The position numbers and the translations under genes were made by a program. 42,969 nt of DNA, from assembly GCF_014698305.1 (NCBI RefSeq), contig NZ_JACJST010000036.1, positions 1 through 42,969 on the forward strand, given 5' to 3'. The notes under the pieces were generated by a model, which saw only the letters and a list, made by a program, of their open reading frames with translations, did no database searches and was not told where the DNA came from. Position 1 is the first letter of the stretch. Every line of letters begins with the position of its first letter. Shown here one piece after another: positions 6,901 through 42,736 of the stretch. The DNA is from Anabaena lutea FACHB-196. GTDB lineage: Bacteria; Cyanobacteriota; Cyanobacteriia; Cyanobacteriales; Nostocaceae.

Positions 6901-7183
6901 TACCCAAAGCATGAAAATAACGCCCCAACTGCGTCGTTTTTTCAACTTTCTTAAGAGAAATACCAACATCTTTAGCCTCAATATGCCCAACTTCCAAACC
7001 ACCTTGCATTACCACAAAATCCGGCGCACCGCAAGCAATTCGTTTAGGTTCATTAATAGCTTGAATACTAGAATCTAAAGACTCTATTAATTTATTCAAA
7101 GCTGGACGATAACTATGCTCAGTAGCATTTTGACCTTGATAAATTTGATTAACTTCTTGAAAGTATACTTGCAAATAATTCAT
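3989..7183 (-). CDS. Single-chain restriction-modification enzyme (type ISP/IIG-like N6-adenine methyltransferase)
   Basis: This large protein combines modification and probably cleavage. Numbering from the long frame that opens with GTG at 7330, the SAM motif DPAVGTGTFM is at 421-430 and the catalytic NPPY of N6-adenine methyltransferases at 540-543. Near the N-terminus, PD (103-104) followed by EAK (118-120) is a good PD-(D/E)XK nuclease motif. The C-terminal 500 residues look like the type ISP target-recognition region (LYRPFDNRFTYYTG, FHSPAYRQRYAEFLK). No helicase motifs are seen, so it is IIG-like rather than a full ISP motor enzyme. I prefer the ATG at 7183 (MNYLQVYFQEVNQIYQ, about 1064 residues), because the extra 49 codons upstream cross an interspersed repeat. 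The gene stands alone, as expected for a single-chain system. Confidence 0.85.
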   Translation of the reverse strand: MNYLQVYFQEVNQIYQGQNATEHSYRPALNKLIESLDSSIQAINEPKRIACGAPDFVVMQGGLEVGHIEAKDVGISLKKVEKTTQLGRYFHALGNLILTDYLEFRWYVQGELRLSASLGIIDKNKKIKVDAKGMQQVEQLLRQFLLTKVPKVTTPKDLAKRMGGLAQLIRDAIKTALNDVDKGGMLRQQLESFERVLIKDLTGEQFADMYAQTICYGLFAARCNTDNSSNFSRETAAFKLPKTNPFLRSIFGQIAGPDLDERINWAVDTLANILHQTEMAEILKDFGKRSRKEDPVVHFYETFLAEYDPKMRESRGVYYTPEPVVSYMVKSVDYILKNKFNISKGLADSKKIKVPNPQGEGTMETHQVLILDPAVGTGTFMHSIIDYIYDNFKSQKGMWSSYVSQHLLPRLFGFELLMAPYTVAHMKLGLQLQELGYDFSSDERLRIYLTNTLQEGFQIPPADGFMNRIRDEAEAAKDVKQDVPVMVILGNPPYSYESVNTDPWIVGLVRDYYQVDGKPLGERNPKGLLDDYVKFIRFAQHRVSETGYGIVALITNHGYLDNPTFRGMRQNLMQTFDEIYVLDLHGNSKKKEVCPDGSPDKNVFDIQQGVAISIFIKYQNSQQKSATVYHADLWGVREIYNESKQLVGGKYHWLAENDINSTDWEQLHIDTKFYLFKTNDINLQIEYNRNLSITEIISKNSVGLYTARDKLAIHFTQDQLWKTINKFVELSPEDARIHFDLEKDARDWTIILAREDIKDSGLSKSQIFPILYRPFDNRFTYYTGKSRGFHCMPRSDIMNHMIKSENLALATLRRPRNEIAANFFVSDKITDKCIISSLDNANIFPLYLYPTDTPTLFDHQPTNAPGGRRPNLSPEFITEFSQKLGLEFIFDGKGNKSKTFGPEDILNYIYAVFHSPAYRQRYAEFLKIDFPRVPLTSNSVLFWELVGKGDKLVKLHLMKEAGLEISTYPIAGSNIVEQVKYNEPNQRVWINSEQYFDQVPPQIWNFYIGGYQVCQKWLKDRKGRELTFDDLTHYQNIISIISETIKTMADVDKIIEKYGGFPLE

Positions 7184-7220
7184 AATTTGATCACAACTAT
7201 TAAAAAACTCTGCTTCTCTT

Positions 7221-7275
7221 ACTTTGCGCCTAACGTACTTCGTACTTCGCTTCGCTAATGCGCCTTTGCGTGAGA
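7221..7275. repeat. Interspersed repeat containing CGCCTTTGCGTGAG
   Basis: The stretch has the doubled TACTTCG unit, CGCTTCGCTAATG and CGCCTTTGCGTGAG. The last part is the reverse complement of the CACGCAAAGGCG-type element found again near 22231-22260. Such elements are spread through Nostocales genomes. It lies just upstream of the preferred restriction-modification start and in frame with it, which artificially lengthens that reading frame. Confidence 0.5.
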
Positions 7276-7554
7276 TAACAAAATTTAGCCAATTTACTAT
7301 ATCCCACAGGTAGAAGAAAAAAATCAGCACTCTTGATCGCTTATAGATCAGGCTTACCTATAATAATTTAAGAAGTGCAACACGATAAAACATCAAGTAC
7401 AAATCCGACCCTGCTATCCTCTCTTCAACATCACCCTGTAGAGACAGCAAGATTATCCCTACAAGCTAAATTTTGGCAGATCCGATAAATCTTGTCTGGT
7501 TAGCATCTTGGCGGTTCAATTCAAAAATGGCAATAACGGGAGAACAGCAAATCT

Positions 7555-20412: not shown

Positions 20413-21304
20413 TCATTTTTCTGACCTAACAGCGCGAATCTGCCGTAATTGACCTTCTCCATAAAGATACTGCCCTAAAGCATTAGCTTGGCGAGAAGGT
20501 GCAGCTAAATACGCATTTACCTTCTTTTCTTTCAACAACCTTTGCAAATCTTCCCAGAAAAACTCTCCACCACCACCCGTAATAATTACATGGGATTTGC
20601 TTGATGTTAGCAGAAATAAATGCTACATTACCTGGCTCACGACTAACACAGGCTTTTGTGCTGGTTCTACCTAAGTCAATACTAAGAATATTTTTAAGTA
20701 ATGGTTCTCTATGGTTATTCGTTACACTCTCTAAAAGAGTCTCATAATAATCATCAGGAATAATAATTAAGTTCTCTTCTATTTCTTCAAGTTCTGTCTG
20801 TAAATTGGTATGTCTATCAGTTAATTCATTAATAATTTTAGTTTTTTCTGTGATTAATTCTTTTTGCGTTGTATTTTCCGCAGTAAGTTCATCATATTTT
20901 TTCTGTAAATTATCATATTTAACGGTAAAATCAGTGATAAATTGTTTATTTCTGTTAATTAATTGTTGAGAATTAGCTAAATTATCAAGATGTTGTTTAT
21001 TCTCATCAGCTACTTGATGATATTCTTGCTCTAGATTTTCATATCTACTCGTTAATTCATCAATAATTTGTGTGTTTTGTGCAATTACTTCCCTAGCCTG
21101 ATTTAATTCATCAATCTTTTTGGTATTTTCATCAGTAAGTTGATGATATCCTTTTTCTAAATTGGTATATTTATCACTTAATTCATTAGCAATTTTTTTG
21201 TAATGTTTAGCTGCTTGTCTATTCTTACTTTCCGCAGCATAAGCAGCAAAAGCACCCATAGCAAGACCCATAACACCAAATAAAAAAGGAATCATCGGTA
21301 TCAT
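20413..21304 (-). pseudogene. Membrane-anchored coiled-coil/actin-like (ParM-type) protein with internal deletion
   Basis: The minus-strand frame from 21304 codes for a membrane segment (residues 4-24, IPFLFGVMGLAMGAFAAYAA) and a coiled coil (about 35-195) built of near-repeats starting ELSDKYTNLE, ELTSRYENLE, DFTVKYDNLQ and ELTDRHTNLQ, spaced 42, 42 and 35 residues. Then the first strand of an actin-like ATPase begins: LSIDLGRTSTKACVSREPGN. After ANIKQIP the frame is wrong and runs to a stop at 20483. In the next frame the DNA continues SHVIITGGGGEFFWEDLQRL, then KVNAYLAAPSRQANALGQYLYGE split, to a TGA at 20413, the C-terminal lobe of ParM/Alp-type proteins. Roughly 240 residues of the ATPase are missing. 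A functional actin cannot result. Confidence 0.75.
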
Positions 21305-29531: not shown

Positions 29532-30291
29532 TCCTCTTCTCTTTTGGCATTTTACCCTGTATGGACTAGTCCGCAGAGCAGAATTAAAAATTAAAAATAG
29601 AGCTTCCGGACTCCTTAAGGGATACAAAATTCAAATATGTTAGGAGTTACGCATTGACAAAGTAGTAAAATAGTGTATTGATAAAAAGTATCATCTACTT
29701 ACCAGATATCAGACGATTAGAGAAATCAGCAAACCTTCCGCAGCACAATGCAATCTGGAACATTACACTCTGTTTTTGCTATCAGAAGTGTAGTCATGTC
29801 TTGGCCAGAAGGGGAAAAGCTGCGGGTTAGTCACAATGCAGATTTGAAAGTTTATATTTATCGAGAACGATGCACACACCATCTGTTGCAGGAATGGGAG
29901 CAGCAGAATGTAGAGAACCTATGGCTCTGACTTTAAGACTGAATTTACCATGTATTACATGGAAAAATGAATTTTCTACTTTGACTGTTTTTTTGACCCA
30001 TAACGTGAGCTAAAAGCCCATTTTTTCATTCAAGTCACAGGATCTACCATCACGCTACATTTTGAATAGCACCATTTACTTCTGTAATTGCTCCATCACC
30101 ACCTAAATCATGTTTCAATCTTCAAAAAATCTTTAAAATTTAGAGATAATATTTCCAAGAGAACACAGCTAGAAGTTTGGCTGTTAGTTTGGACATCACC
30201 CAATTAGCGATTAGCACTGTTTACCATAGCAAAAAATAAAACATGAATAGAAATAAAACTCAGTAGATTTTTCTTAGTTAATTTAGAGCTT
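29532..30291. other. Long upstream region of the KaiC-like operon
   Basis: 760 bp. It contains TAGGAGTTACGCATTGAC (29641-29658), a common Nostocales repeat that includes TTGACA 16 nt before TATTGA, a weak promoter-like pair. An ATG frame at 29748-29930 (60 codons, MQSGTLHSVFAIRSVVMSW) has no ribosome-binding site and I do not accept it as a gene. The 20-bp element at 30117-30136 is listed separately. Confidence 0.5.
30117..30136 (+). promoter_or_regulatory. 11-nt-spaced direct repeat element, copy 1
   Basis: AATCTTCAAAAAATCTTTAA has half-sites ATCTTCA and ATCTTTA 11 nt apart, the phasing used by OmpR-family regulators. It is 155 bp before the KaiC-like start. A copy with one mismatch stands upstream of the bacteriophytochrome gene (38569-38588). 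Confidence 0.5.
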
Positions 30292-31998
30292 ATGGTTATA
30301 CAAAATACAACTACAAAAAGTAATCAGAAATCTTTGCCTAAATCGCCAACTGGCATTCAAGGCTTAGATGAAATTACTGCTGGTGGACTACCTCAAGGTC
30401 GTCCCACATTAGTTTGTGGTGCTGCTGGCTGTGGTAAAACCTTAATGGGAATAGAATTTTTAGTCCGTGGTATAACCGAGTATGGAGAACCAGGAGTATT
30501 CATTTGTTTTGAAGAAAACCCCGAAGAACTCATACAAAATGTTACTTCTTTGGGGTGGGATTTAGAACAGTTAATTCTTGACAAACAATTAGCTATTGAC
30601 CACATCCAGATCGACCCCCAAGAAATTATTGAAGCAGGTAGCTATGATTTAGAAGGTTTATTTCTTCGCATCGGTCTAATGGTAGATGCAGTCAAAGCCA
30701 AACGAATAGTATTAGATACTATCGAATCCTTATTTGTCGGTTTAAGTAACGCTGCTATTATCCGTGCTGAATTACGTCGTTTATTTAACTGGCTCAAACA
30801 AAAAGGATTAACAGCCATTATCACTGGAGAACAGGGGGAAAAGACCTTAACCCGGCAAGGTTTAGAAGAATATGTTTCTGACTGTGTAATTAAATTAGAT
30901 CAACGAATTTATGAAGAATTAGCCACACGAAGACTACAAATTATTAAATATCGAGGTTCACAACATGGTTCTAACGAATATCCTTTCTTAATTACTGATG
31001 ATGGCATTTCTGTCTTACCTATTACTTCCATTGGCTTAGAACATCAAGTCACAACAGAACGTATTTCCTCTGGTATTCCGCGTTTAGATAGTATGCTGGG
31101 GGGCAATGGATTCTTCCGGGGTAGCAGCGTTTTAGTTACAGGTACAGCAGGAACTGGTAAAAGCACTATAGCTTGCCATTTTGCTGCGGAAACTTGTCGT
31201 CAAGGAGAAAGGTGTTTGTACATAGCTTTAGAAGAAGCACCGCAACAAATTATTAGGAATATGCGCTCAATCGGTTTAGATTTAGAGCCTTATTTACAAC
31301 AGGGGTTACTCAATTTTCAAGCATTTCGTCCTACTGCTTATGGGTTAGAAATGCACCTGGTGAATTTACATCACTGGATACAGAAATTTAAACCTTCTAC
31401 CGTGGTTATAGATCCCATGAGCAACTTGATATTAAGCGGTACAATCAATCAAACTAAGATGTTTTTTATGCGGTTGATTGATTTTCTCAAATCGCAACAA
31501 ATAACAGTGTTGCTAACTAACCTAATTCCTGGTCATGGACTAATTAATCAGACAGAAATAGGAGTTTCTTCCCTTATGGATACTTGGATTGACCTACACA
31601 CTTTAGAAAGCAACGGAGAACGTAACCGACTCTTGAATCTTCTCAAATCTCGCGGTATGGAACACTCTAACCAAGTACGGGAATTTTTAATCACCAAACA
31701 AGGTGTAGAACTGCTAGATGTATATTTAGGGCAGGGAAATGTTTTAACTGGTAGTGCTAGAATTATTCAAGAAGCACAAGAAAAATTAGCAGCCAATCAA
31801 CGCCAACGATTATTAGAGCAAACAAGACGCGAATTAGAATACAAAGAAAAGTTAGTTTCCACGCAGATTTCTGCATTACAGGCAGAATTAGCAGCAGAAC
31901 AGGAAGAATTTCGCATTCTTACAGAACAAGAAACTATTAATAGTCAGAATTTAAGGCAATATAGCCAAAAACTAGCTCAATTACGAAAAGCCGATTAG
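30292..31998 (+). CDS. KaiC-like ATPase (clock protein paralogue)
   Basis: A 568-residue protein with two KaiC/RecA domains, the design of the clock ATPase KaiC. Domain CI has Walker A GAAGCGKT (43-50) and catalytic Glu pair E74-E75; domain CII has GTAGTGKS (284-291) and E314-E315. The stretch GVSSLMDTW puts Ser426-Ser427 where the Synechococcus KaiC has Ser431-Thr432, its autophosphorylation sites, so a phosphorylation cycle of the KaiC2/KaiC3 kind is possible. Beyond CII, residues about 490-568 add a coiled coil (EKLAANQRQRLLEQTRRELE) absent from standard KaiC. No kaiA is nearby; kaiB-like genes, a kinase and a regulator follow. It is therefore a paralogue, not the core clock gene. Confidence 0.88.
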   Translation: MVIQNTTTKSNQKSLPKSPTGIQGLDEITAGGLPQGRPTLVCGAAGCGKTLMGIEFLVRGITEYGEPGVFICFEENPEELIQNVTSLGWDLEQLILDKQLAIDHIQIDPQEIIEAGSYDLEGLFLRIGLMVDAVKAKRIVLDTIESLFVGLSNAAIIRAELRRLFNWLKQKGLTAIITGEQGEKTLTRQGLEEYVSDCVIKLDQRIYEELATRRLQIIKYRGSQHGSNEYPFLITDDGISVLPITSIGLEHQVTTERISSGIPRLDSMLGGNGFFRGSSVLVTGTAGTGKSTIACHFAAETCRQGERCLYIALEEAPQQIIRNMRSIGLDLEPYLQQGLLNFQAFRPTAYGLEMHLVNLHHWIQKFKPSTVVIDPMSNLILSGTINQTKMFFMRLIDFLKSQQITVLLTNLIPGHGLINQTEIGVSSLMDTWIDLHTLESNGERNRLLNLLKSRGMEHSNQVREFLITKQGVELLDVYLGQGNVLTGSARIIQEAQEKLAANQRQRLLEQTRRELEYKEKLVSTQISALQAELAAEQEEFRILTEQETINSQNLRQYSQKLAQLRKAD

Positions 31999-32054
31999 CC
32001 TGTTTTTTCACTTTTGTTACAGAAAAAATCTGACTCTATTCTAGGTCTGAGTAC

Positions 32055-32092
32055 CCTTGATAATTAGAAAATTAGATCAAGGTTTCTATTTT
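32055..32092 (+). terminator. Terminator-like hairpin after the KaiC-like gene
   Basis: CCTTGAT (32055-32061) pairs with ATCAAGG (32076-32082), followed by TTTCTATTTT. It could partly separate the kaiC-like gene from the kaiB-like genes downstream. Confidence 0.5.
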
Positions 32093-32164
32093 AGAACATC
32101 GGACAAGGCGTTAATTTAAAAACTGATAGCGCAGGGTGGTGTAAGGGACTTCCAGAAATTAAAT

Positions 32165-32192
32165 TATTTAATTTTAAGTATTTAATTTTAAG
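32165..32192. repeat. 14-bp tandem repeat
   Basis: TATTTAATTTTAAG occurs twice head to tail (32165-32178 and 32179-32192), 64 bp before the first kaiB-like gene. It might be part of a promoter region. Confidence 0.7.
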
Positions 32193-32255
32193 AGCGAAGA
32201 TGAGTATGAGATTCTTTCTCGACTATGATAATAAAAAATCTCAGGAAATTCTTTT

Positions 32256-32564
32256 ATGGAAGAACACAATATATTAGACGAATCAGCGATATGGAAATTA
32301 CGGCTATATGTAGCTGGACAAACACCAAAATCTGTGGCTGCATTTGCCAATTTAACAAAAATATGTGAGCAAAATCTTTATGGTAAATATCAAATTGAAG
32401 TAGTGGATCTAATGCAACATCCTCATCTAGCACGAGAATATAACATCTTTGCTATTCCCACTTTAATCCGTCAGCTACCAGTTCCTCTCAAGCAAATTAT
32501 TGGTGATTTATCTGACCAAGAAAAAGTATTAGTCGGTTTAGAAATCAAGCCAGTTATAAATTAG
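32256..32564 (+). CDS. KaiB-like protein
   Basis: A 102-residue protein with the thioredoxin-like KaiB fold. [20 protein letters not shown] matches the first strand and helix, [12 protein letters not shown] the second strand, [20 protein letters not shown] the cis-Pro segment, and [14 protein letters not shown] the last helix. KaiB binds the CI ring of KaiC after fold-switching and recruits output kinases. The usual acidic tail is missing, as in other short KaiB paralogues. It is followed by a second, broken kaiB-like copy. Confidence 0.88.
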
Positions 32565-32657
32565 CAATCATCTAGTAATTATGGCTGACGCTACACGGCT
32601 AGATGAGAAACCACACTCAATTTCTATATGATATTCATCGTTTGGGGGGAATAAGTT

Positions 32658-33017
32658 ATGAATAATCAAAATGGACAAGAGGATATAGAAGATTTAAGTG
32701 CTGAATTTAAACAACTAATTACAAAATCAGAAAACCCAATTTTTTGTTTACGACTTTATGTGGCAGGTGCTAATTATAATTCTCTGAAGGCTTTACAAAA
32801 TATAAAACAGATATGTGAAAAATATTTACCTGGTAAGTATCAGTTGGAAGTAATTGACATTTATCAACAACCTGGCTTAGTTTTGGTAGAAAATGTATTC
32901 GCTGTACCCACATTAGTGAAATAATTACCTCCACCAGTAAAAAAAATAATTGGTGATTTATCGAATACTGTCAATGTGCTTATAGGTTTAAATATTGCAT
33001 CCGATAACAGGGAATAG
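32658..33017 (+). pseudogene. Second kaiB-like gene with an in-frame TAA
   Basis: The frame gives FCLRLYVAGANYNSLKALQN, YQLEVIDIYQQPGLVLVEN and AVPTLVK and then TAA at codon 89 (32922-32924). The same frame continues LPPPVKKIIGDLSNTVNVLI then GLNIASDNRE to a TAG at 33017, exactly the missing KaiB C-terminus. The intact neighbour has Gln at the matching site, so one CAA-to-TAA change explains it. The 88-residue product lacks the fourth strand region and last helix. A GGGGGAATAAG sequence before the ATG is a reasonable ribosome-binding site. It has an N-terminal extension of about 25 residues (EDIEDLSAEFKQLITK). Confidence 0.8.
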
Positions 33018-33110
33018 GCTAGAAAATCTTTTGATATATCCCTTTATTATGATATTTTACCTCCTGTTACCTCAATTTCCTGCATATCAGATGAAAAGGA
33101 AAATTAAAAA

Positions 33111-35708
33111 ATGAATTTAGATAATTATTCAACCGAAGAATTATTACGAGAAATTCAAGTTCTGCAAACAAGGTTAAAAACATCTGAAGATACATTAGAA
33201 GCAATACATCAAGGTGCAGTTGACGCTTTTGTGATTGCTACTCCAGAAGGTGAAAAAGTATTTACGCTCCAAAGTGCAGATTACACCTATCGTTTGCTAA
33301 TTGAGCAGATGCATGAAGGAGCAGTTATTGTGACATCAGATGGAGGAATTTTATATGCTAATCAAGCATTTGCTAATTTAGTTCAGCTTCCTTTATCAAA
33401 GATTATAGGGTCTAAATTTCAACGATTTATTTTAGAGCGAGATGTTGATAATCTTCAAGCTTTGATGAAAATAAAAGATCAAGATTTAGCAGCAGCAGAT
33501 GAATTCTCGCTCATCAATATTAATCAACAAGAAATATCTGTTTACATTAATGCCAATAGCTTGAATATTAATAGTTATGAGATTACTTGCTTTATTGTGA
33601 CAGATTTAACCGAAAGACACCAAAATGAACAAATTATAGCTTCAGAGAGATTTGCTAGATCAATTTTAGAACAAGTGGGTGAATCTATAGTAGTTTGTGA
33701 CGAAACTGGGAAAATTATTCGTGCTAGTCAAGTTTTTAATAATTTATGTGGAACAAATCCTCTTTGGCAAAATTTTGATAATTTAATATCCTTATTTTTC
33801 TCTCATTTAGATTCAAATATTATAGCTAACATTATCCAATCACTGCCAAATGATGTTCCAGATATAATGCTCGAACATCGCTTTCATATCAATACAGTTT
33901 TACAGGGTCAGACTTATAATGGAGTAGAAGTTTATTTTCAACGTTCTGACGGTCAGCAATTTGATTTATTTCTTAATGCTCGTCCTTTATTAAACTCAAT
34001 TGGAGCAATTATTGGCGCAATTGTCAACCTTACAGATATTACAGAACGTAAACACCAAGAAGCAGAAATACACCAGGCCAAGTTGGAATTAGAAATAAGA
34101 GTTGCACAACGCACTGCTGAACTAACTGAACTGAATAAACATCTACTTATTAGCTTAGATGAGATAGAAAAAAAGCAACAAAAGCTTTTGGAACAATCTC
34201 AACTTTTGGATTTGGCTCATGATACAATCTTGACCAAAGATATCAACTCCTCAGTTATTACCTTTTGGAACAACGGAGGAGAGAAGATGTATGGTTGGAC
34301 AAAAGCCGAAGCCATAGGAAAAGTATCTCACAAACTTTTAAAAACCCAATTTCCGCAGCCATTAGCTGAAATTAAAGCTCAAGTTCTAAAATTAGGATAT
34401 TGGGAAGGAGAATTAATTCATAGTGATAGAAATGGCACTTCTGTAATTGTTTCCAGTCGTTGGGTACTACAAAAAGACGAGTCTGGTAAACCTGTTAAAA
34501 TCCTGGAAATGAATAATGATATTACAAAACAAAAGCAAAAAGAAGCAGACCTGAAGAACAGTGAAATCAAGTTTCGTTCACTCACGGAATGTTTACCTAT
34601 AGGTGTATTTCTGACTGATAAAGAAGGAAAAATTATTTATGTTAATCCTTATTATCAAATTTTTTCTGGACTAACTATGGCAGAAATTATAGGAGAAGAT
34701 TGGTTAAATTTTATCCATGCTGATGACCGAAAGAAGATATTAAAAGAATGGTTGATGATTTTAAATAATGCACCGAGAGATTTTTGTGAGTTAAATTTTT
34801 GTCATGAAGTAAAATATTTTCATCAAGATAATCAAATCCATTATGCACGAATTCATTTAGCCCCAATGTTGATAGAGCGGGAGAAAATGAGTGGTTATAT
34901 CGGAATTGTAGAAGATATAACTGAAATTCGTGCAGTTGAACAAATGAAAAAAGATTTTATCTCTATTGCTAGTCATGAATTGCGTACTCCATTAACAGCA
35001 ATAAACGGTGCTTTAGGATTATTAGCAGGTAAAGTTTATGATAACAATCCTGACAAGCGTACCCAAATGATTAATATTGCTGCTGCTCAAACAGCGCGTT
35101 TAGTTAGGTTAGTGAATGATATTCTAGCGTTACAGAAATTGGAGTCTGGTAATACAATTCTGGTAAAACAAAGCTGTGATGCAGCTGAATTAATTATAGA
35201 TTCTGTCAATCTCATGCAACCAGAGGCAGAAAAAAATCACATAAATTTCCAGATAAATACTATCTCAATCGAAATTTGGGTTAATCCTGACGCGATTATT
35301 CAAACTTTAACAAATCTGTTGAGTAACGCCATCAAGTTTTCTGCACCTTGTACTACTATTACTGTTAGTAATATCTTAGTTGATAGCCAGGAAACTCAAG
35401 CACAAATATTTGCTCATTTAACTAATAATTATTTACTTAATGTTCTATGTCCACCCTATGTCATGTTTCAGGTACAAGACCAAGGAGAAGGAATTCCAGC
35501 AGATAAATTAGAAACTATATTTGGTTGGTTTCAACAAGTTGATTCTAGCGATGCCAGAGAAAAAGGTGGTACAGGTTTGGGTTTGTCAATTTGTCGGAAT
35601 ATTATCCAACAACATGAAGGACAGATTTGGGCAGAGAGCAAATTAGGTCAAGGCAGCACATTTTTCTTTACATTACCACTGCGAGAAAATCACAAAGAGG
35701 ATACTTAA
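33111..35708 (+). CDS. Multi-PAS sensor histidine kinase
   Basis: An 865-residue soluble kinase with no membrane segment. A short N-terminal helix (TEELLREIQVLQTRLKTSED) precedes about four PAS domains (roughly 60-155, 165-305, 360-480, 490-605), with a coiled coil between the second and third (about 310-360). HisKA contains DFISIASHELRTPLTAINGA with His622; the HATPase domain follows with NLLSNAIKFS, DQGEGIP and GGTGLGLSI. It lies 93 bp after the broken kaiB-like gene and 6 bp before a CheY-like gene, so it should phosphorylate that regulator. KaiB- or KaiC-bound input, as for SasA, is plausible, but it lacks SasA's KaiB-like N-domain. Confidence 0.92.
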   Translation: MNLDNYSTEELLREIQVLQTRLKTSEDTLEAIHQGAVDAFVIATPEGEKVFTLQSADYTYRLLIEQMHEGAVIVTSDGGILYANQAFANLVQLPLSKIIGSKFQRFILERDVDNLQALMKIKDQDLAAADEFSLININQQEISVYINANSLNINSYEITCFIVTDLTERHQNEQIIASERFARSILEQVGESIVVCDETGKIIRASQVFNNLCGTNPLWQNFDNLISLFFSHLDSNIIANIIQSLPNDVPDIMLEHRFHINTVLQGQTYNGVEVYFQRSDGQQFDLFLNARPLLNSIGAIIGAIVNLTDITERKHQEAEIHQAKLELEIRVAQRTAELTELNKHLLISLDEIEKKQQKLLEQSQLLDLAHDTILTKDINSSVITFWNNGGEKMYGWTKAEAIGKVSHKLLKTQFPQPLAEIKAQVLKLGYWEGELIHSDRNGTSVIVSSRWVLQKDESGKPVKILEMNNDITKQKQKEADLKNSEIKFRSLTECLPIGVFLTDKEGKIIYVNPYYQIFSGLTMAEIIGEDWLNFIHADDRKKILKEWLMILNNAPRDFCELNFCHEVKYFHQDNQIHYARIHLAPMLIEREKMSGYIGIVEDITEIRAVEQMKKDFISIASHELRTPLTAINGALGLLAGKVYDNNPDKRTQMINIAAAQTARLVRLVNDILALQKLESGNTILVKQSCDAAELIIDSVNLMQPEAEKNHINFQINTISIEIWVNPDAIIQTLTNLLSNAIKFSAPCTTITVSNILVDSQETQAQIFAHLTNNYLLNVLCPPYVMFQVQDQGEGIPADKLETIFGWFQQVDSSDAREKGGTGLGLSICRNIIQQHEGQIWAESKLGQGSTFFFTLPLRENHKEDT

Positions 35709-35714
35709 GAAGTC

Positions 35715-36095
35715 ATGTCTACGAAACGGGTGCTAGTTATTGATGATGAAGAGGCAATTCAAGCTGTAATTCAGGGTTGCTTAGAAGATATTGCTGGATG
35801 GAAAGTTTTATTAGCTAGTTCAGGTAAAGAAGGATTGCATTTAGCTGAAGTTGAGAAACCAGATGGTATCTTATTAGATGTTTCCATGCCGCAGATGAGT
35901 GGTATTGAGGCACTCAAAAAATTGCAAGTAAATCCTCTGACTCAAAATATTCCGGTCGCTTTTTTGACTGCAAAAGTGCAGTCTGAAGACAAAAAGAGAT
36001 TTTCTCAGTTAGGGGTTGTAGGTTTGTTAACTAAACCCTTTAACCCAATGAATCTTGTGAATTTAGTGGCTGACTTATTCGGTTGGGAAATTTGA
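35715..36095 (+). CDS. CheY-like response regulator
   Basis: A 126-residue stand-alone receiver domain. The acidic pocket is DDE at residues 10-12, the phosphoacceptor is Asp55 (ILLDVSMP), and Thr85 and Lys107 (LLTKPFN) complete the switch. It starts 6 bp after the kinase stop codon and is presumably its partner. It closely resembles the regulator at 42359 in length and pattern (TAKVQS, KPFxP). With no DNA-binding output it must act through protein contacts or phosphotransfer, perhaps to the HPt-bearing regulator encoded next. Confidence 0.93.
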   Translation: MSTKRVLVIDDEEAIQAVIQGCLEDIAGWKVLLASSGKEGLHLAEVEKPDGILLDVSMPQMSGIEALKKLQVNPLTQNIPVAFLTAKVQSEDKKRFSQLGVVGLLTKPFNPMNLVNLVADLFGWEI

Positions 36096-36244
36096 CTAAA
36101 AATTAATAAGTTGTCTTAAAATGACTCCTGAATTTTAAAAATTAAGTAGTCGTGAAAAATAAATTTCATAGTTAGGAGAGGGAACAGGGAACAGGTAAGG
36201 TTTACAGAGATTTTTTCTTCAATAACTATGTGCAGCCTGGGTAC

Positions 36245-38110
36245 TTAACATTTTTGTAGTCGTTGCCAAATTCTTGTAGCTATTTCATTCTTATTCATGG
36301 ATTTACTAAAATAATCATCTGCACCTGCGGCATAAGCTTGAGAAATTATCTCAGGTTTACTATTAGTTGAGATAAATGTCACTGGTAGATTATGCCATTG
36401 AGGGTCTGTTCGTACAACTCGGCACAAATCTATGCTACTAAATCCAGGCATTTGTTGATTTAAAATTACTAAATTTGGCTGATTGCGATTTAATAATTGC
36501 AGAAAATTTTGAGCATCAGTACAGATGAATACTTCAATTTTATAGCTAGTTAATAGATTAGACAATTGGTGAAAAAATTTGTGTTTATTATCTAAAATTA
36601 AAACCCGATATCGGTAATTTTGGAATAGTGGTTGAATTAGAGTATTTACAGCTTCTAACACTGTCGATATAGGTAAGTTTTTATTCACAAAGAAACATCC
36701 ACCCCAACGAGTAAAATCTACTCTATCTGTGAGCGTATCTTTGGCTGTAAAAGCAACTACGGGAATTTTTGGTGTGTGAGTTGATAGTTCTTGCATGAAA
36801 TTTCGACCATCTTCACCCCTACCAGAGATGTTTAAATCTAATAAAATTACATCAGGTGGGGTTTGAGTAATCATTTTCCGGGCTACGTTGATATCTGTGG
36901 CAATTTCTACCCGCCATGTCCATTTATTCGTGTTAGCTTGTCTAGTTATACTCATGACCTCAATGCGGATTTGCTCGGCCAGCATCAAATCCTCGTCTAC
37001 AATTAACAATAATGGTGAATAGGCTATAAATTCAGTATTTGCTTGTGTTTTTGGTTCTAGAACAGTTGAAACTTTGCTAACTTCTTGTTGTATAGCTGTG
37101 CTTAGTTCCCTTGCTTGCTGGATGTCATCAGGATTCAAAACTGTCGGTTGCAATAAAATTTCTAATTGTTTTGCTTGTTCGGATATGTTTATAAAACCCA
37201 AACTTCCCAAACTTCCAGCTAATTTATGAGCAATCTGTTCAGCTTGATTTTTTAGTTCTATATCTGGTTGTATTGTTGATAAAGTAGCTGTAATTTGTGA
37301 TAATTTATTTGTTTCCTCTACGTAATATTTTTGAAATTTCTCCCATACTTTTGATGTAATGATTTGGGCGTTTTCTTCGGTATGTGTTTGCACACTCGCA
37401 GTATTTGACTGGGTAGGAGGTGAGAATTGCTCAGATTCACTGAGAGTTTTTAAGCGATATCCCAGACCATATACAGTTTCAATTGGATCTTCTGCTCCCA
37501 CTGCTTTTAACTTTTGGCGCAAACTCTTAATATGGGTACTTACAGTCCCTTCACCGGGAATTTCAGCAAAATCCCAGAGCCGATCTAAAATAGCTTGACG
37601 GCTAAATATTCGTTTAGGGTTCAGTAGAAATAATTCCAATAAACAATATTCTTTGGGTGTGAGATGTATAGATTGATTACCAGAATATACTCTTCCACTA
37701 GCTGAATCAAAGTGAATACCGTCCCAAATTATTTCCTGGGGAATAAAAGATTTACTGCGGCGTAGTAAAGCATGAATTCTTGCTAGTAATTCTTCTAAAT
37801 CAAAAGGTTTAGTAACGTAATCATCTGCTCCTGCTTCAAGTCCAATAATTCTTTCTGTAACTTGATTTTTAACCGTAATTAGCAAAATAGGAGTCTGACA
37901 GCCTTGATGTCGCCATTGTTTACATATACTGATGCCGTCTAATTTAGGCAGGACAATATCTAATATTATTAAGTCATACTCACACTGTTCTTGCAATTCT
38001 AACGCCATTTCTCCATCAGTAGCTAAACTAACTTGGTATTCATGAGCGGTGAGAAAGTTAGCTATTGTTTCACGGGTGATGCTGTCATCTTCTACTAATA
38101 GTATTTTCAT
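36245..38110 (-). CDS. OmpR-type response regulator with HPt and two further receiver domains
   Basis: A 621-residue protein with an unusual domain order: receiver 1 (1-118; Asp51, Lys101), an OmpR winged helix (about 125-222; ETVYGLGYRL at the wing), an HPt domain (about 255-350; His295 in AHKLAGSLGSLGF), receiver 2 (about 365-490; Asp425, Lys477) and receiver 3 (about 500-621). Receiver 3 has Asn551 in place of the phosphoacceptor Asp (LVILNQQMPG), so it should be phosphorylation-blind, while its Lys603 remains. It could act as both a phosphorelay hub and a transcription factor. It is divergent from the bacteriophytochrome gene across a 561-bp gap and convergent with the Kai-like operon. 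Confidence 0.92.
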   Translation of the reverse strand: MKILLVEDDSITRETIANFLTAHEYQVSLATDGEMALELQEQCEYDLIILDIVLPKLDGISICKQWRHQGCQTPILLITVKNQVTERIIGLEAGADDYVTKPFDLEELLARIHALLRRSKSFIPQEIIWDGIHFDSASGRVYSGNQSIHLTPKEYCLLELFLLNPKRIFSRQAILDRLWDFAEIPGEGTVSTHIKSLRQKLKAVGAEDPIETVYGLGYRLKTLSESEQFSPPTQSNTASVQTHTEENAQIITSKVWEKFQKYYVEETNKLSQITATLSTIQPDIELKNQAEQIAHKLAGSLGSLGFINISEQAKQLEILLQPTVLNPDDIQQARELSTAIQQEVSKVSTVLEPKTQANTEFIAYSPLLLIVDEDLMLAEQIRIEVMSITRQANTNKWTWRVEIATDINVARKMITQTPPDVILLDLNISGRGEDGRNFMQELSTHTPKIPVVAFTAKDTLTDRVDFTRWGGCFFVNKNLPISTVLEAVNTLIQPLFQNYRYRVLILDNKHKFFHQLSNLLTSYKIEVFICTDAQNFLQLLNRNQPNLVILNQQMPGFSSIDLCRVVRTDPQWHNLPVTFISTNSKPEIISQAYAAGADDYFSKSMNKNEIATRIWQRLQKC

Positions 38111-38671
38111 AACTTTTGTGGTTATATGGGTTATTTTTGAGAAAATTTAGAATAAATATATGTTTTTTAGGCGATAGCAGAAATATTGATGTTAAACAAG
38201 ATGAATAAATCCATATTACACAATATTTTTTAATCTGTTTTATGAGATTTAGGTTTATATTTTCTACAATAGAAAGAAAATGTATTGATTAAAGATTAAT
38301 AACTTCAAAACTTGGCTTTTATGTTTAAAAATATCAATTTTATAGCGAAATATGCAAATTTTTCCCTCTATCAGGCTTAAAAGCATAGGTTTTTATATCA
38401 ATTCTATGTGAAGTTGCAATATATCCATGTAGGGGAAATTCATGTAGCTTGCTTCCCGCAGGGTACGCGGATGGATGCTGATCAACGCAGATAAATCAAT
38501 TGATGGTATTTAAAATATCCTTCTACCCTGAGAAGAATCAAAAATGTTAAGTTTTTTATCATTTTTATAATCTTCATAAAATCTTTAATTTTTCTTTTCA
38601 TACTCAAGAAAATAGAATACTTTGTTGTCTTTCTTTTAGCACTTATCTTTATTATCTCTTGTGAGTCATTT
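38111..38671. other. Divergent promoter region, regulator/bacteriophytochrome
   Basis: 561 bp between divergent starts. It contains GTAGCTTGCTTCCCGCAGGG (about 38443), a common Nostocales repeat, the 20-bp direct-repeat element (38569-38588) and a possible -10, TAGAAT (38613-38618). No gene seen. Confidence 0.55.
38569..38588 (+). promoter_or_regulatory. 11-nt-spaced direct repeat element, copy 2
   Basis: AATCTTCATAAAATCTTTAA differs from the copy upstream of the KaiC-like gene at one of 20 positions and keeps the 11-nt half-site phasing. It ends 83 bp before the bacteriophytochrome start, and 24 bp before a TAGAAT that could be the -10, a usual place for an activator site. Confidence 0.5.
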
Positions 38672-41600
38672 ATGATCGAAACTGAGTTTTTAGCAAAAAA
38701 AACACCAGTAGACTTAACTAACTGTGATAAAGAACCTATTCATATTCCTGGCTTAATTCAGCCTCATGGTATTCTCTTGGTTTTACAAGCACCTAATTTA
38801 AATATCATTCAAGTTAGTGAGAATATTTTTGATATTCTTGGTATTCCTAGTGAGGATATATTAGGTAAAACACTCAAGATATTATTCAATAGTAAGCAAA
38901 TCCATCTCATCAAACAATCTTTAGCGGAATTATCTGAAACAATTAACCCATTAGATTTACATATTGATACTCAAACAGGCAGAAAGAACTTCGACGGGAT
39001 TATTCATAAATCATATGGATTCATCATTCTTGAGCTAGAACTTGTATCTCCAAAACATGATAATGGTGATTTTTTGAGTTTTTACAGCTTATTACAACCT
39101 GTGATTTGCAAATTGCAAAAATTGTCTTATTTGGATGAATTATGCCAAATCATTGTTAAAGAAATTCGTAATTTAACAAGTTTTGACAGAGTAATGGTTT
39201 ATAAATTTGATTCTGAAGGTGCAGGTGAAGTTATAGCCGAAGCTAAATTAGAAAGTTTAAGTTCTTTTCTTGGTTTACATTATCCACCTTCTGATATACC
39301 TAAACAAGCTAAACAATTATATACTCTTAATCCTTTGCGTCTCATACCGGATGTAAATTATCAAGCTGTAAAAATTATAAATATTGACAATTCAGTTAAT
39401 GATATACCTTTAAATCTCAGTGGCAGTGTTTTAAGGAGCGTTTCTCCCATACACGTTGAATATCTGAAAAATATGGGTGTAACTGCTTCAATGTCTATTT
39501 CATTAATCCGCGAGCAAAAATTATGGGGTTTAATTGCCTGTCATCATTATTCGGCAGCTAAATATGTTCCCTATAAATTGCGTACTGTTTGTGAATTACT
39601 CGGCAGGGTGATGTCTTTAGAAATTTCAGCGAAAGCAGAAAATGAGTATTTAGATTACAAAATTATTTTGAAAGAAATTTTGTCTGATATTTTATCGAAG
39701 ATTATCAAAAATGAAAATTGGATAGAAGTTTTAAGCGAAAACAGAAGTAAATTATTAGCATTAGTTGGTGCTGAAGGGGTAGCCATTTGTGATGAAAATA
39801 AGGTGATTATGATTGGAAAAACACCTGTATTAAATGAGATTAACAATATTTGTAAATTTTTAGAAGCAGATATTTTTCATCAAGGGGTAAGTGATTATCT
39901 TTATGAAATAGATTCTTTGGCGAAGATTTACCCAGAAGCAGAAAATTTTAAAAATGTTGGTAGTGGTCTGCTGGCAATTATGATTTCTCAGGAATATAAA
40001 CAGTATATTTTATGGTTTCGTCCAGAGGTGATTCAAACTGTTAATTGGGCAGGTAATCCTCATAAACCAGTAGATATAAGTGAAGATGGTACTGTGCGTT
40101 TATCCCCACGTAAATCTTTTGAATTGTGGCAAGAAACAGTAAAGTTAAAATCTTTGCCTTGGCAGCGATGTGAAATTGAAGTAGCTAAAGAGTTAAGAAA
40201 TATAATTGTGGGAATAGTTTTACAAAAAGCTGAGGAGATTTCTAAAATTCATCAACAATTAATGCTGGCTTTGAAAGCTGCAAAAATGGGAGTATGGGAT
40301 TGGGATTTACGGCAAGATCGGATTGTTTGGTCAATTGGTCATGATCAGTTATTTGGGTTAGTAGAACCGGAAGCTATTGTTTTAAAATCTTTGGTTGATC
40401 CACGAGATTGGCAATTTGTAAATTTAGCACTTAATCAGGCTTTTGTGGAGCAGCAAGATTATTATCAGGAATTTCGTGTGGTTTGGCCGGATGGGAGTAT
40501 TCATTGGATTGAAGGTAGAGGTAAATTTTTCTTAAACGATGCGGGTCAAGCGGTGCGATTTTTGGGAACTATGGTAGAAGTGAGCGATCGCAAACTGGCC
40601 GAAATTAAACTCCAAGAACTGAATGCAGACTTAGAAAACAGGGTGCAAAACCGGACTTTAGACCTAGAAAAGTCCCAAACGGCACTGCAACAACAAATCG
40701 AACGAGAACAAATATTTATGAGGCTGACGCAACAAATACGCCAGTCTCTGAATCTGGAAGAAATTCTCAATACTGCTGTGACACAGGTACGGAATTTGCT
40801 GGCAGTAGATCGAGTTTTATTCTATCGCATCACTGAGAATAGTAGCGCCTCTATTATTGCTGAGGCTGTTAGTAATCCATCCTTGAGTATTATCAACTCT
40901 GTTCATGCTCTAGATGTTCTTCCTCCAGAGTGTTACCAGCACTATCTCAACGGAGAAGTGACTATTTTCAATAATTGCCAGAATCAGGAAGTAATACCTT
41001 GGTGGGCTGCTAATTTAGGAGTAAATCAAGTTACAGCCCAGTTAGTAGTGCCGATTATTCAAGAAAGTCATCTGTGGGGACTCCTAATCACCCATCAATG
41101 TAGCGATCGCACAAAATGCAGTGCTGAGTGGCAACCTGGGGAAATTGATTTACTTCAGCAGTTAGCTAATCAAATAGCGATCGCTATTCAACAATCAGAA
41201 CTATACCAGCAACTAGAAACAGAACTGCGGCAACGTCAACAAATTGAAACAGCCTTGCGACGCAGCGAAAATTTGTTTCGTTCTCTCAATGAATTTGCCC
41301 CTGTTGGTATTTTTAAAACAGATGCTCAAGGAAAAATGCTCTATTGCAATCCTTGCTGTCAGGAAATTTGTGGCTTTACCCTCGAAGAATCACTAGGAGA
41401 TGGCTGGAAAAAATTTATTCACCCAGAGGATTTAGCAGTTTTTTTACCCCAATGGAATGCAGGAGTTGACACATACCAACAACTCTCTACTGAATTGCGT
41501 TTCATCCATGAAAATACAACCTTTCGTATTTGTCAGCTAGTTGCTGTGCCTATTTTTTCTGATAGCAGTAATTGTATGGGATATGTCGGCACTGTAGAAG

Positions 41601-42331
41601 ATATTACAGATGCTCGAAATATGGAGAAAATGAAAAATGAGTTCATTTCTATAGTCAGCCATGAACTGAGAACGCCATTAACTTCTATTCGTGGATGTTT
41701 AGGATTAATTACTGCCAGTACAATCAGAAATCAACCAGAAAAAATGCAAAAAATCTTACAAATTGCTACTAGCGATACAGAACGATTAACCAGATTATTA
41801 AATGACATTCTTGATTTAGAACGCTTAGAAAATAACAAATTTATCCTCAATCAACAATATTGCGATGCCAGTAACTTAATCAATCAAGCTATGGACTCGA
41901 TGCAAACAATAGCACAAGAAAATCACATTGATTTGCAAAGTTCAGCCATTTCTTCTCAAGTTTGGGTAGATGCCGACAGAATCATACAAGTTCTTGTCAA
42001 CTTAATCAGTAATGCCATTAAATTTTCTCCTGCTCATACTCAAGTAAAACTAAGTGTTGCAGAAATGCCAGAGAATTATTTATTTAAGATTCAAGACCAA
42101 GGTAGGGGAATTCCTAGCAATAAAATAGAAACCATTTTTGGCAAATTTCAGCAAGTAGATGCCAGCGATTCTCGCCAAAAAGGAGGCACAGGTTTAGGTT
42201 TAGCTATTTGCAGTCGAATTATTCAGCAGCATGGTGGCAAGATTTGGGTCGAAAGTGTTTTAGGAAAAGGTAGCACTTTTTATTTTTCTCTCCCTAAACA
42301 GTCCCAGCAGAAAATAGCACCCAATTTGTAA
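38672..42331 (+). CDS. Bacteriophytochrome histidine kinase
   Basis: A 1219-residue red/far-red light sensor. The N-terminal PAS has Cys18 in VDLTNCDKEPIHIPGLIQPHG split form, the biliverdin-attachment Cys of bacteriophytochromes. The GAF domain has PPSDIP (205-210, Asp208) and SVSPIHVEYL, where Ile260 replaces the Cys used by Cph1-type phytochromes and His261 is kept. The PHY tongue has PRKSF (479-483). After this come PAS (about 540-650), coiled coil, a second GAF (about 685-850, no bilin Cys-His), PAS (about 880-985), HisKA (His997 in SHELRTPLTSIRG) and HATPase. It resembles AphB/BphP proteins with an added PAS-GAF-PAS insert. A CheY-like gene follows after 27 bp. Confidence 0.94.
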   Translation: MIETEFLAKKTPVDLTNCDKEPIHIPGLIQPHGILLVLQAPNLNIIQVSENIFDILGIPSEDILGKTLKILFNSKQIHLIKQSLAELSETINPLDLHIDTQTGRKNFDGIIHKSYGFIILELELVSPKHDNGDFLSFYSLLQPVICKLQKLSYLDELCQIIVKEIRNLTSFDRVMVYKFDSEGAGEVIAEAKLESLSSFLGLHYPPSDIPKQAKQLYTLNPLRLIPDVNYQAVKIINIDNSVNDIPLNLSGSVLRSVSPIHVEYLKNMGVTASMSISLIREQKLWGLIACHHYSAAKYVPYKLRTVCELLGRVMSLEISAKAENEYLDYKIILKEILSDILSKIIKNENWIEVLSENRSKLLALVGAEGVAICDENKVIMIGKTPVLNEINNICKFLEADIFHQGVSDYLYEIDSLAKIYPEAENFKNVGSGLLAIMISQEYKQYILWFRPEVIQTVNWAGNPHKPVDISEDGTVRLSPRKSFELWQETVKLKSLPWQRCEIEVAKELRNIIVGIVLQKAEEISKIHQQLMLALKAAKMGVWDWDLRQDRIVWSIGHDQLFGLVEPEAIVLKSLVDPRDWQFVNLALNQAFVEQQDYYQEFRVVWPDGSIHWIEGRGKFFLNDAGQAVRFLGTMVEVSDRKLAEIKLQELNADLENRVQNRTLDLEKSQTALQQQIEREQIFMRLTQQIRQSLNLEEILNTAVTQVRNLLAVDRVLFYRITENSSASIIAEAVSNPSLSIINSVHALDVLPPECYQHYLNGEVTIFNNCQNQEVIPWWAANLGVNQVTAQLVVPIIQESHLWGLLITHQCSDRTKCSAEWQPGEIDLLQQLANQIAIAIQQSELYQQLETELRQRQQIETALRRSENLFRSLNEFAPVGIFKTDAQGKMLYCNPCCQEICGFTLEESLGDGWKKFIHPEDLAVFLPQWNAGVDTYQQLSTELRFIHENTTFRICQLVAVPIFSDSSNCMGYVGTVEDITDARNMEKMKNEFISIVSHELRTPLTSIRGCLGLITASTIRNQPEKMQKILQIATSDTERLTRLLNDILDLERLENNKFILNQQYCDASNLINQAMDSMQTIAQENHIDLQSSAISSQVWVDADRIIQVLVNLISNAIKFSPAHTQVKLSVAEMPENYLFKIQDQGRGIPSNKIETIFGKFQQVDASDSRQKGGTGLGLAICSRIIQQHGGKIWVESVLGKGSTFYFSLPKQSQQKIAPNL

Positions 42332-42358
42332 TTAGCAACAGAGGATATAAAAATAACA

Positions 42359-42736
42359 ATGACAAAAAAACGTATTTTAGTCATAGACGATGAATATGAT
42401 CTGACTCTGATAATTTCAATTTGCCTAGAAGAATTTGGAACTTGGGGAACATTAACTACTCAGAGTCCTCATGAAGGTATTACTTTAGCTCAAACTGAAA
42501 AACCAGATGCCATAATTTTAGATGTAATGATGCCGGATATGGATGGTGTAACTTTATTTAATTATTTAAAAAGTGAACCCAATACTCAAGAAATTCCAGT
42601 AATTTTGATGACTGCTAAAGTACAAAGCTCAGACTTAAAACTTTTTAACAGTTTAGGAATTAAAGGTGTAATTAGCAAACCATTTGACCCCTTGAAATTG
42701 GTAGAACAAATAACAGAACTTCTACAATGGAAATAA
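42359..42736 (+). CDS. CheY-like response regulator
   Basis: A 125-residue receiver-only protein: Asp10-Asp11 pocket, Asp55 phosphoacceptor (IILDVMMP), Thr85 and Lys107 (VISKPFDP). It lies 27 bp after the bacteriophytochrome kinase, whose cognate regulator it should be, as Rcp1 is for Cph1. AGAGGAT about 15 nt before the ATG is a weak ribosome-binding site. It is paralogous to the regulator at 35715. Confidence 0.93.
   Translation: MTKKRILVIDDEYDLTLIISICLEEFGTWGTLTTQSPHEGITLAQTEKPDAIILDVMMPDMDGVTLFNYLKSEPNTQEIPVILMTAKVQSSDLKLFNSLGIKGVISKPFDPLKLVEQITELLQWK

Follow-up and report, generated by a model that had tools for sequence, protein, structure and literature searches.

Do a KaiC/KaiB module and a bacteriophytochrome that lie side by side in a cyanobacterial genome belong to one signalling system? 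The question is raised by a 42,969-nucleotide stretch of Anabaena lutea FACHB-196 DNA (NCBI RefSeq assembly GCF_014698305.1, contig NZ_JACJST010000036.1, positions 1 to 42,969; the whole stretch is called "the window" here). It carries genes for a KaiC-like protein, two KaiB-like proteins, a PAS histidine kinase and a single-domain receiver, followed by a multidomain regulator on the opposite strand and then by a bacteriophytochrome histidine kinase and a second receiver. A sequence-only reading had proposed that a non-core Kai timer or switch and the light sensor feed a common phosphorelay ending in the regulator, and a check of open reading frames (ORFs) together with a domain search bore out the eight genes, their positions, order and domains. 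The analysis points to a KaiC2-type KaiBC timer or switch operon (KaiC, KaiB, KaiB, PAS kinase, receiver) that would have been joined to an RcaC-type regulator in one Nostocaceae lineage and that shares a candidate operator with the phytochrome operon. For this mechanism as a whole, comprising the Kai operon, the RcaC-type relay and the shared repeat, the probability is put at about 0.5.

A direct repeat in front of the kai and phytochrome operons

The link between the two operons is a short DNA element. When upstream regions were aligned, one common block emerged, ATCTTCA-N4-ATCTTYA, a direct repeat with an 11-bp period; OmpR/PhoB-type proteins bind direct repeats of this kind. One copy, ATCTTCAAAAAATCTTTA (30118..30135, plus strand), lies 156 bp 5' of the kaiC ATG and is the predicted regulator site, and another, ATCTTCATAAAATCTTTA (38570..38587, plus strand), lies 84 bp 5' of the ATG of the phytochrome kinase. 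These two exact copies in the window compare with a mean of 0.00 in 100 shuffles. The 6.06-Mb genome holds four exact copies and none of the reversed control pattern. Three of the four lie upstream of island genes, namely kaiC, the phytochrome kinase gene and RR140 (41 bp before it, on contig C21); the fourth, on contig C19, has no clear target. Beyond the repeat, the kaiC, phytochrome and RR140 sites have, by eye, little in common except A/T. RR140 is the next gene of the island in genome G191 (locus L031) and in the congener G441 (L192), and the contig of the window ends before it. Its adjacency to the island in A. lutea (genome G000, in which C21 is locus L168) would follow from the gene order in L031 and L192; a search for overlap between the window contig and C21 found none.

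Comparison among loci gave the same association. In all five loci where the regulator is linked to Kai genes, the repeat lies 154-156 bp 5' of kaiC with zero or one mismatch. At this stringency, it was found within 500 bp upstream of kaiC in 0 of the 29 loci without the regulator clade, one of which has a copy with two mismatches. In L031, L062, L064 (genome G094, also represented by L032) and G441, a copy with zero or one mismatch precedes kaiC, RR140 and, where present, the phytochrome gene or its remnant. These data support an operator-like role for the repeat shared by the kai and phytochrome operons and, as far as sequence comparison can show, co-regulation of both operons by the neighbouring regulator is well supported.

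Looser matching is less informative. Genome-wide, 14 sites have zero or one mismatch against 5 for the reversed pattern, a weak level, and a wider regulon built on one-mismatch copies was rejected, since the seven such sites viewed, out of ten, gave no coherent target set. At other RcaC loci (996,192 bp), the repeat occurs 0, 6 and 39 times at 0, 1 and 2 mismatches and its reverse 0, 1 and 16 times; since near matches are in excess there, only exact or one-mismatch sites before kaiC were used. One-mismatch copies were also seen at L173:1983-2000 and L167:3766-3794 (an overlapping triple repeat in L167); they are in two genomes, some 0.8-0.9 kb 5' of genes that are related, and we take the gene next to these copies to be HetC-like.

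The KaiC2-like module and its kinase

The window KaiC (30292..31998, plus strand; 568 aa; two PF06745 stretches, E 9.3e-117) scores 362.6 bits against the canonical KaiC model TIGR02655, under the curated cut-off of 546.25. Its closest PDB relative is Rhodobacter sphaeroides KaiC (E 1.4e-197), with other KaiC entries at 4e-114 or weaker. Alignment with the organism's own KaiC1 and with R. sphaeroides KaiC gave Ser-Ser phosphosites and a P-loop and catalytic EE in both KaiC domains. Two phosphosite serines and the EE and P-loop in both domains are among the criteria for KaiC2-type proteins in PMC5520375 (published systems are described here from excerpts of the cited papers), as is the lack of an R-linker in CI; by its serines, EE pairs and P-loops the protein is KaiC2-like in sequence. 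The same paper calls the role of KaiC2-type proteins in cyanobacteria unclear. A non-core Kai module with its own kinase and receiver, as had been proposed, is thus supported, and it is of the KaiC2-like kind. The accompanying claim that kaiA is missing holds for the cluster and fails for the genome, where kaiA and an adjacent KaiB-domain gene are on contig C9. This canonical kaiA is about 17 kb from another PHY-domain gene (C9 72659-73195 and 90177-90506), and kaiA is near a PHY-domain gene also in G094 (~10 kb) and G191 (~15 kb). The whole genome holds five KaiB-domain genes and five PHY-domain genes, the window's own included.

The nearest described system is the KaiBC hourglass of R. sphaeroides (Cereibacter; PMC10076222; region L158), which, like the window, combines a Ser-Ser KaiC bearing a C-terminal extension with KaiB and then a kinase, and has no kaiA in the cluster. 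It has a single KaiB and an HWE kinase, whereas the window has two KaiB, a HisKA PAS kinase, a receiver and an RcaC-type regulator. A C-terminal coil joining two hexamers is a trait of KaiBC hourglasses; at the sequence level, the window extension aligns with the tail of R. sphaeroides KaiC. A KaiC search of the genomes of the order returned 32 places with at least 60% identity, followed by a gap down to about 40%, and these 32 places are referred to as KaiC2-type loci. In G191, a stop close to the end of KaiC (L031:15142-16845) shortens the protein by six residues.

Of the two KaiB genes, the first (32256..32564, plus strand; 102 aa) is intact. The second (32658..32924, plus strand), which adjoins the kinase, had rightly been described as broken: an in-frame TAA cuts it at 88 aa, it matches PF07689 positions 1-57 of 82 only, and the frame runs about 30 codons past the TAA with KaiB-like residues. 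It is alone among 87 KaiB rows in having an internal stop, the stop position is a sense codon in the five relatives compared and in G441, and the second KaiB of G191 is intact; a sequencing error in A. lutea is possible. In a tree of the KaiB sequences, the first copies group together (36 rows, 100/94), as do most of the second copies, though less firmly (35 rows, 80/70); the alignment has few columns and the bootstrap is unsettled. A second-KaiB lineage exclusive to the kinase was rejected, as the second group also takes in the single KaiB genes of seven loci that lack the kinase module (L037, L039, L043, L047, L054, L056 and L057).

The PAS kinase (33111..35708, plus strand) is followed directly by the single-domain receiver RR1 (35715..36095, plus strand), and its N-terminal module (residues 1-165) is consistently linked to KaiB. 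The module was found at 21 places in 20 of 195 genomes of the order (E 1e-15) and at 16 places, three of them new, in 15 of 367 genomes of the phylum search (E 1e-12); with at most 18 (order) and 10 (phylum) candidates scored per genome, it occupies at least 24 places. In all 24 cyanobacterial places found, a kaiB lies just 5' of it, with distances from the KaiB match of between 14 and 1,025 bp in a 53-locus survey and about 50 to 110 bp in a second locus set. That survey took 12 of the 18 loci of one set (L063, L064, L069, L070 and L071 duplicate other contigs, and L078 is no more than a stub) and counted L087 and L141, which are one locus, once. Two KaiB genes occur together with the module at 30 of the 53 loci, two KaiB without it at 2 (L045, L051), one KaiB without it at 16, and one KaiB with a module match at 5, two of them partial (L160, L161). 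No probability was put on this association because the loci are related. No kaiC is in the fetched stretch of six module loci (L138, L139, L140, L084, L087 and L194 of G214). In G477 (L195:2496-5172), kaiC is matched by two fragments separated by about 1 kb, next to a KaiB pair.

The order KaiC, KaiB, KaiB, module is also found in Chloroflexi (L073), in Acidobacteria (L075, L076, L077 and L079) and on a Pararhizobium plasmid (L159); it is not present in the Spartobacteria locus L074 or in R. sphaeroides. The HisKA half of the kinase had no match at the loci outside cyanobacteria, and hence only the N-terminal module, with 23 invariant columns across 14 sequences, is common to them. Given this co-occurrence in several phyla, the second KaiB may serve the kinase. 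The Kai core (KaiC, two KaiB and PAS kinase) is the old layer of the island, and the convergent regulator and the phytochrome kinase with its receiver are the young layer.

In the canonical clock, Kai output passes through the kinase SasA, which has a KaiB-like domain at its N-terminus, to the OmpR-type regulator RpaA. Unlike SasA, the window kinase gave no PF07689 match, and its N-terminus is predicted to be a helix plus PAS (mean pLDDT 75.5; the prediction says nothing on partner binding). Kinases encoded immediately behind kaiC or kaiB have been described before (PMC4794148, PMC3164672); the excerpts of these two papers on kaiC-kaiB-PAS/histidine kinase operons mention neither the pairing of a second KaiB with a kinase module nor an RcaC-type regulator or a shared operator.

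The RcaC-type regulator and the bacteriophytochrome

The regulator (36245..38110, minus strand) had been read as a five-domain OmpR protein. Its receiver, OmpR/PhoB winged helix (Trans_reg_C), HPt, receiver and third receiver were all recovered, with the correction that the third receiver has Asn551 where most homologues have Asp, so that a phospho-Asp is not found in every receiver. RcaC itself has an HPt as a further domain. Its three receivers and winged helix are described in PMC4390838, and the window regulator matches this architecture. In an alignment of 61 loci and the window, with no row dropped, the HPt His is present in 62 of 62 rows, and position 551 is Asp in 55, Asn in 3, and Glu, Gly, Gln or a gap in one each. 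The three Asn rows (window, L031 and L062) are all Kai-linked, G441 also has Asn, and the Kai-linked regulator of G094 (L032, L064) has lost both C-terminal receivers and kept its DNA-binding part. Thus, the Kai-linked regulator clade, comprising the window, L031, L062, L064/L032 and L192, is one that, by its residues and domains, does without the last receiver. This would fit a phosphodonor in trans, a part that RcaF plays for RcaC (PMC8256508) and that RR1 could play here.

The regulator family is large, with a homologue in at least 102 of the 195 genomes at E 1e-100 (at most six candidates scored per genome). A regulator specific to Kai was rejected: the family is widespread, and Kai genes are near 2 of 57 other RcaC-type loci picked among the matches listed, both in one genus. 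Conversely, an RcaC-type gene is in the fetched stretch of 4 of the 32 KaiC2-type loci (window, L031, L032 and L042), and L084 and L087, in another family, have RcaC-type genes adjacent to KaiB-kinase pairs that lack kaiC. The RcaC L-box was rejected as the target site of the island: 2 matches to its consensus at up to three mismatches were found against 6.06 by chance, none near the island. The relays RcaE-RcaF-RcaC of chromatic acclimation and RfpA-RfpC-RfpB of FaRLiP (PMC8256508, PMC4390838) combine, as the window does, a phytochrome-class kinase, a CheY-like receiver and a multi-receiver winged-helix regulator. The window differs from them in that its relay genes are joined to a Kai module, its third receiver is without Asp and no L-box lies near the island.

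The phytochrome kinase (38672..42331, plus strand; 1219 aa; PAS_2, GAF, PHY, PAS_3, GAF, HisKA, HATPase), followed by the single-domain receiver RR2 (42359..42736, plus strand), retains its PAS-GAF-PHY core, its kinase domains and a Cys18 near the N-terminus, the chromophore attachment in bacteriophytochromes being an N-terminal Cys. In the GAF domain, Ile stands at the site that is Cys in the nearest structure, and by this rule a biliverdin-type pigment is likely. Homologues at E 1e-250 were found in at least 2 of the 195 genomes, with three candidates scored per genome. Among the loci examined, the complete island, with phytochrome kinase and receiver, is in the window and in G191 only, so the neighbourhood is not peculiar to one genome; had it been so, the sequence-only reading would have been refuted by its own terms. 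A conserved Kai-phytochrome pairing was nonetheless rejected, and with it the idea of a conserved Kai partner: the phytochrome is present at 2 of the 32 KaiC2-type loci, in a single lineage. The gene order in L031 is regulator, phytochrome kinase, RR2, RR140, while in L062 and L064 the regulator adjoins RR140 with no phytochrome between them. Cylindrospermum sp. NIES-4074 has Kai genes and the regulator and lacks the phytochrome. The simplest reading of these arrangements is that the phytochrome was inserted in an ancestor of the lineage and later lost in G441; the light sensor looks like a late, easily lost neighbour and the least stable part of the island. In the myxobacteria described in PMC11832031, a BphP in tandem with KaiC, a link hypothesised by its authors, gives a similar Kai-bacteriophytochrome proximity; the KaiC types are other ones, few occur with KaiB, and the excerpt mentions no RcaC-type regulator. 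A literature search for KaiC and RcaC together returned one match, which by its title concerns nanoparticles.

The gene after RR140 on C21 (L168:1203-2804) encodes another PAS histidine kinase, which gives a partial receiver match. RR140 of G441 matches over its first 47 residues only, near where the PAS kinase that follows begins. Elsewhere, the window encodes a type ISP restriction-modification protein (3989-7330; N6 methylase and specificity domain) and a 273-aa ORF (20483-21304), coiled-coil-rich by eye and with only a sub-threshold Pfam match, which may be a cut gene. Rfam and tRNA scans of the window gave no matches.

One relay, two systems or a decaying island

In the proposed mechanism, phosphate from each kinase would reach the regulator's HPt by way of that kinase's own receiver (RR1 or RR2) and go from there to the N-terminal receiver, by analogy with RcaE, RcaF and RcaC. 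We infer that phosphate flows in this direction, that the regulator, by binding ATCTTCA-N4-ATCTTYA, controls the kai operon, the phytochrome operon and RR140, and that the Kai module has a timing function. Control by the regulator of its own input genes would form a feedback loop, with the phytochrome kinase as a later and dispensable second input. A common phosphorelay of both kinases is plausible. Several observations weigh against the proposal. Ten other genomes of the family have 0 to 2 exact copies of the repeat and 0 to 2 reversed copies each, and two exact copies are found in each of G077, G035 and G181, where the linked regulator was not seen. Since the pattern was derived by aligning four of the regulator-linked loci, only some sites are independent, namely the RR140 sites of A. 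lutea and L031 and the three G441 sites, in loci that are themselves related. No repeat was found at the RcaC-type genes beside Kai genes in other families (L042, L084 and L087). The truncated KaiB beside the kinase argues against an intact Kai-to-kinase link, and the Kai input may thus be uncoupled or lost in A. lutea. In addition to the restriction of the phytochrome to one lineage, G441 has lost the phytochrome coding region while keeping its upstream repeat and RR2, and it has a stop at codon 293 of the PAS kinase and a cut RR140.

Both members of the genus that were seen carry a damaged island, which could be decaying there with little function left. Close kin do carry different lesions: the window has the stop in the second KaiB, and G441 has a stop in the PAS kinase, a deleted phytochrome coding region and a shortened RR140. 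However, seven of the eight window genes are full length against relatives, the repeat sites keep a fixed spacing to kaiC, and G441 retains the site before its lost phytochrome gene, making decay an unlikely explanation. A reader of the repeat other than the neighbouring regulator would be easy to supply, since OmpR/PhoB-type regulators are numerous, and would account for the exact copies in three genomes without the linked regulator and for the C19 copy. Yet the repeat precedes kaiC only where the regulator clade is linked, and it persists in G094, where the regulator retains its DNA-binding part without both C-terminal receivers; another reader seems improbable. The two kinases could also head independent two-component systems that share a transcriptional regulator, with the phytochrome kinase signalling through RR2 only and passing nothing to the HPt protein. 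Immediately behind each kinase lies a receiver of its own, the phytochrome pair of L031 sits as a unit between regulator and RR140, a place where L062 and L064 lack it, and no full phytochrome is near 49 of the 57 other RcaC-type loci among the matches listed. On the other hand, phytochromes (>300 aa aligned, at least 45% identity) occur in 8 of the 57 loci listed, in four families, roughly ten times the chance rate by our own estimate from three to four genes per 6.5 Mb, but five of the eight are in one genus and signalling genes cluster. Separate systems are possible, if on balance doubtful.

The proposed relay can be extended to a feedback-coupled light/time switch separate from the KaiABC clock, in which a KaiBC hourglass and a red/far-red phytochrome would be two inputs of one RcaC-type relay whose output site precedes the kai operon, the phytochrome operon and a relay receiver gene, and the KaiB beside the PAS kinase would be a detached SasA-like sensor subunit. 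In this full form, the idea is speculative and unlikely. What the locus offers is a named kinase, receiver and regulator together with a short, directly testable DNA site that has few genomic copies, and close relatives that have lost different pieces of the island provide a natural experiment.

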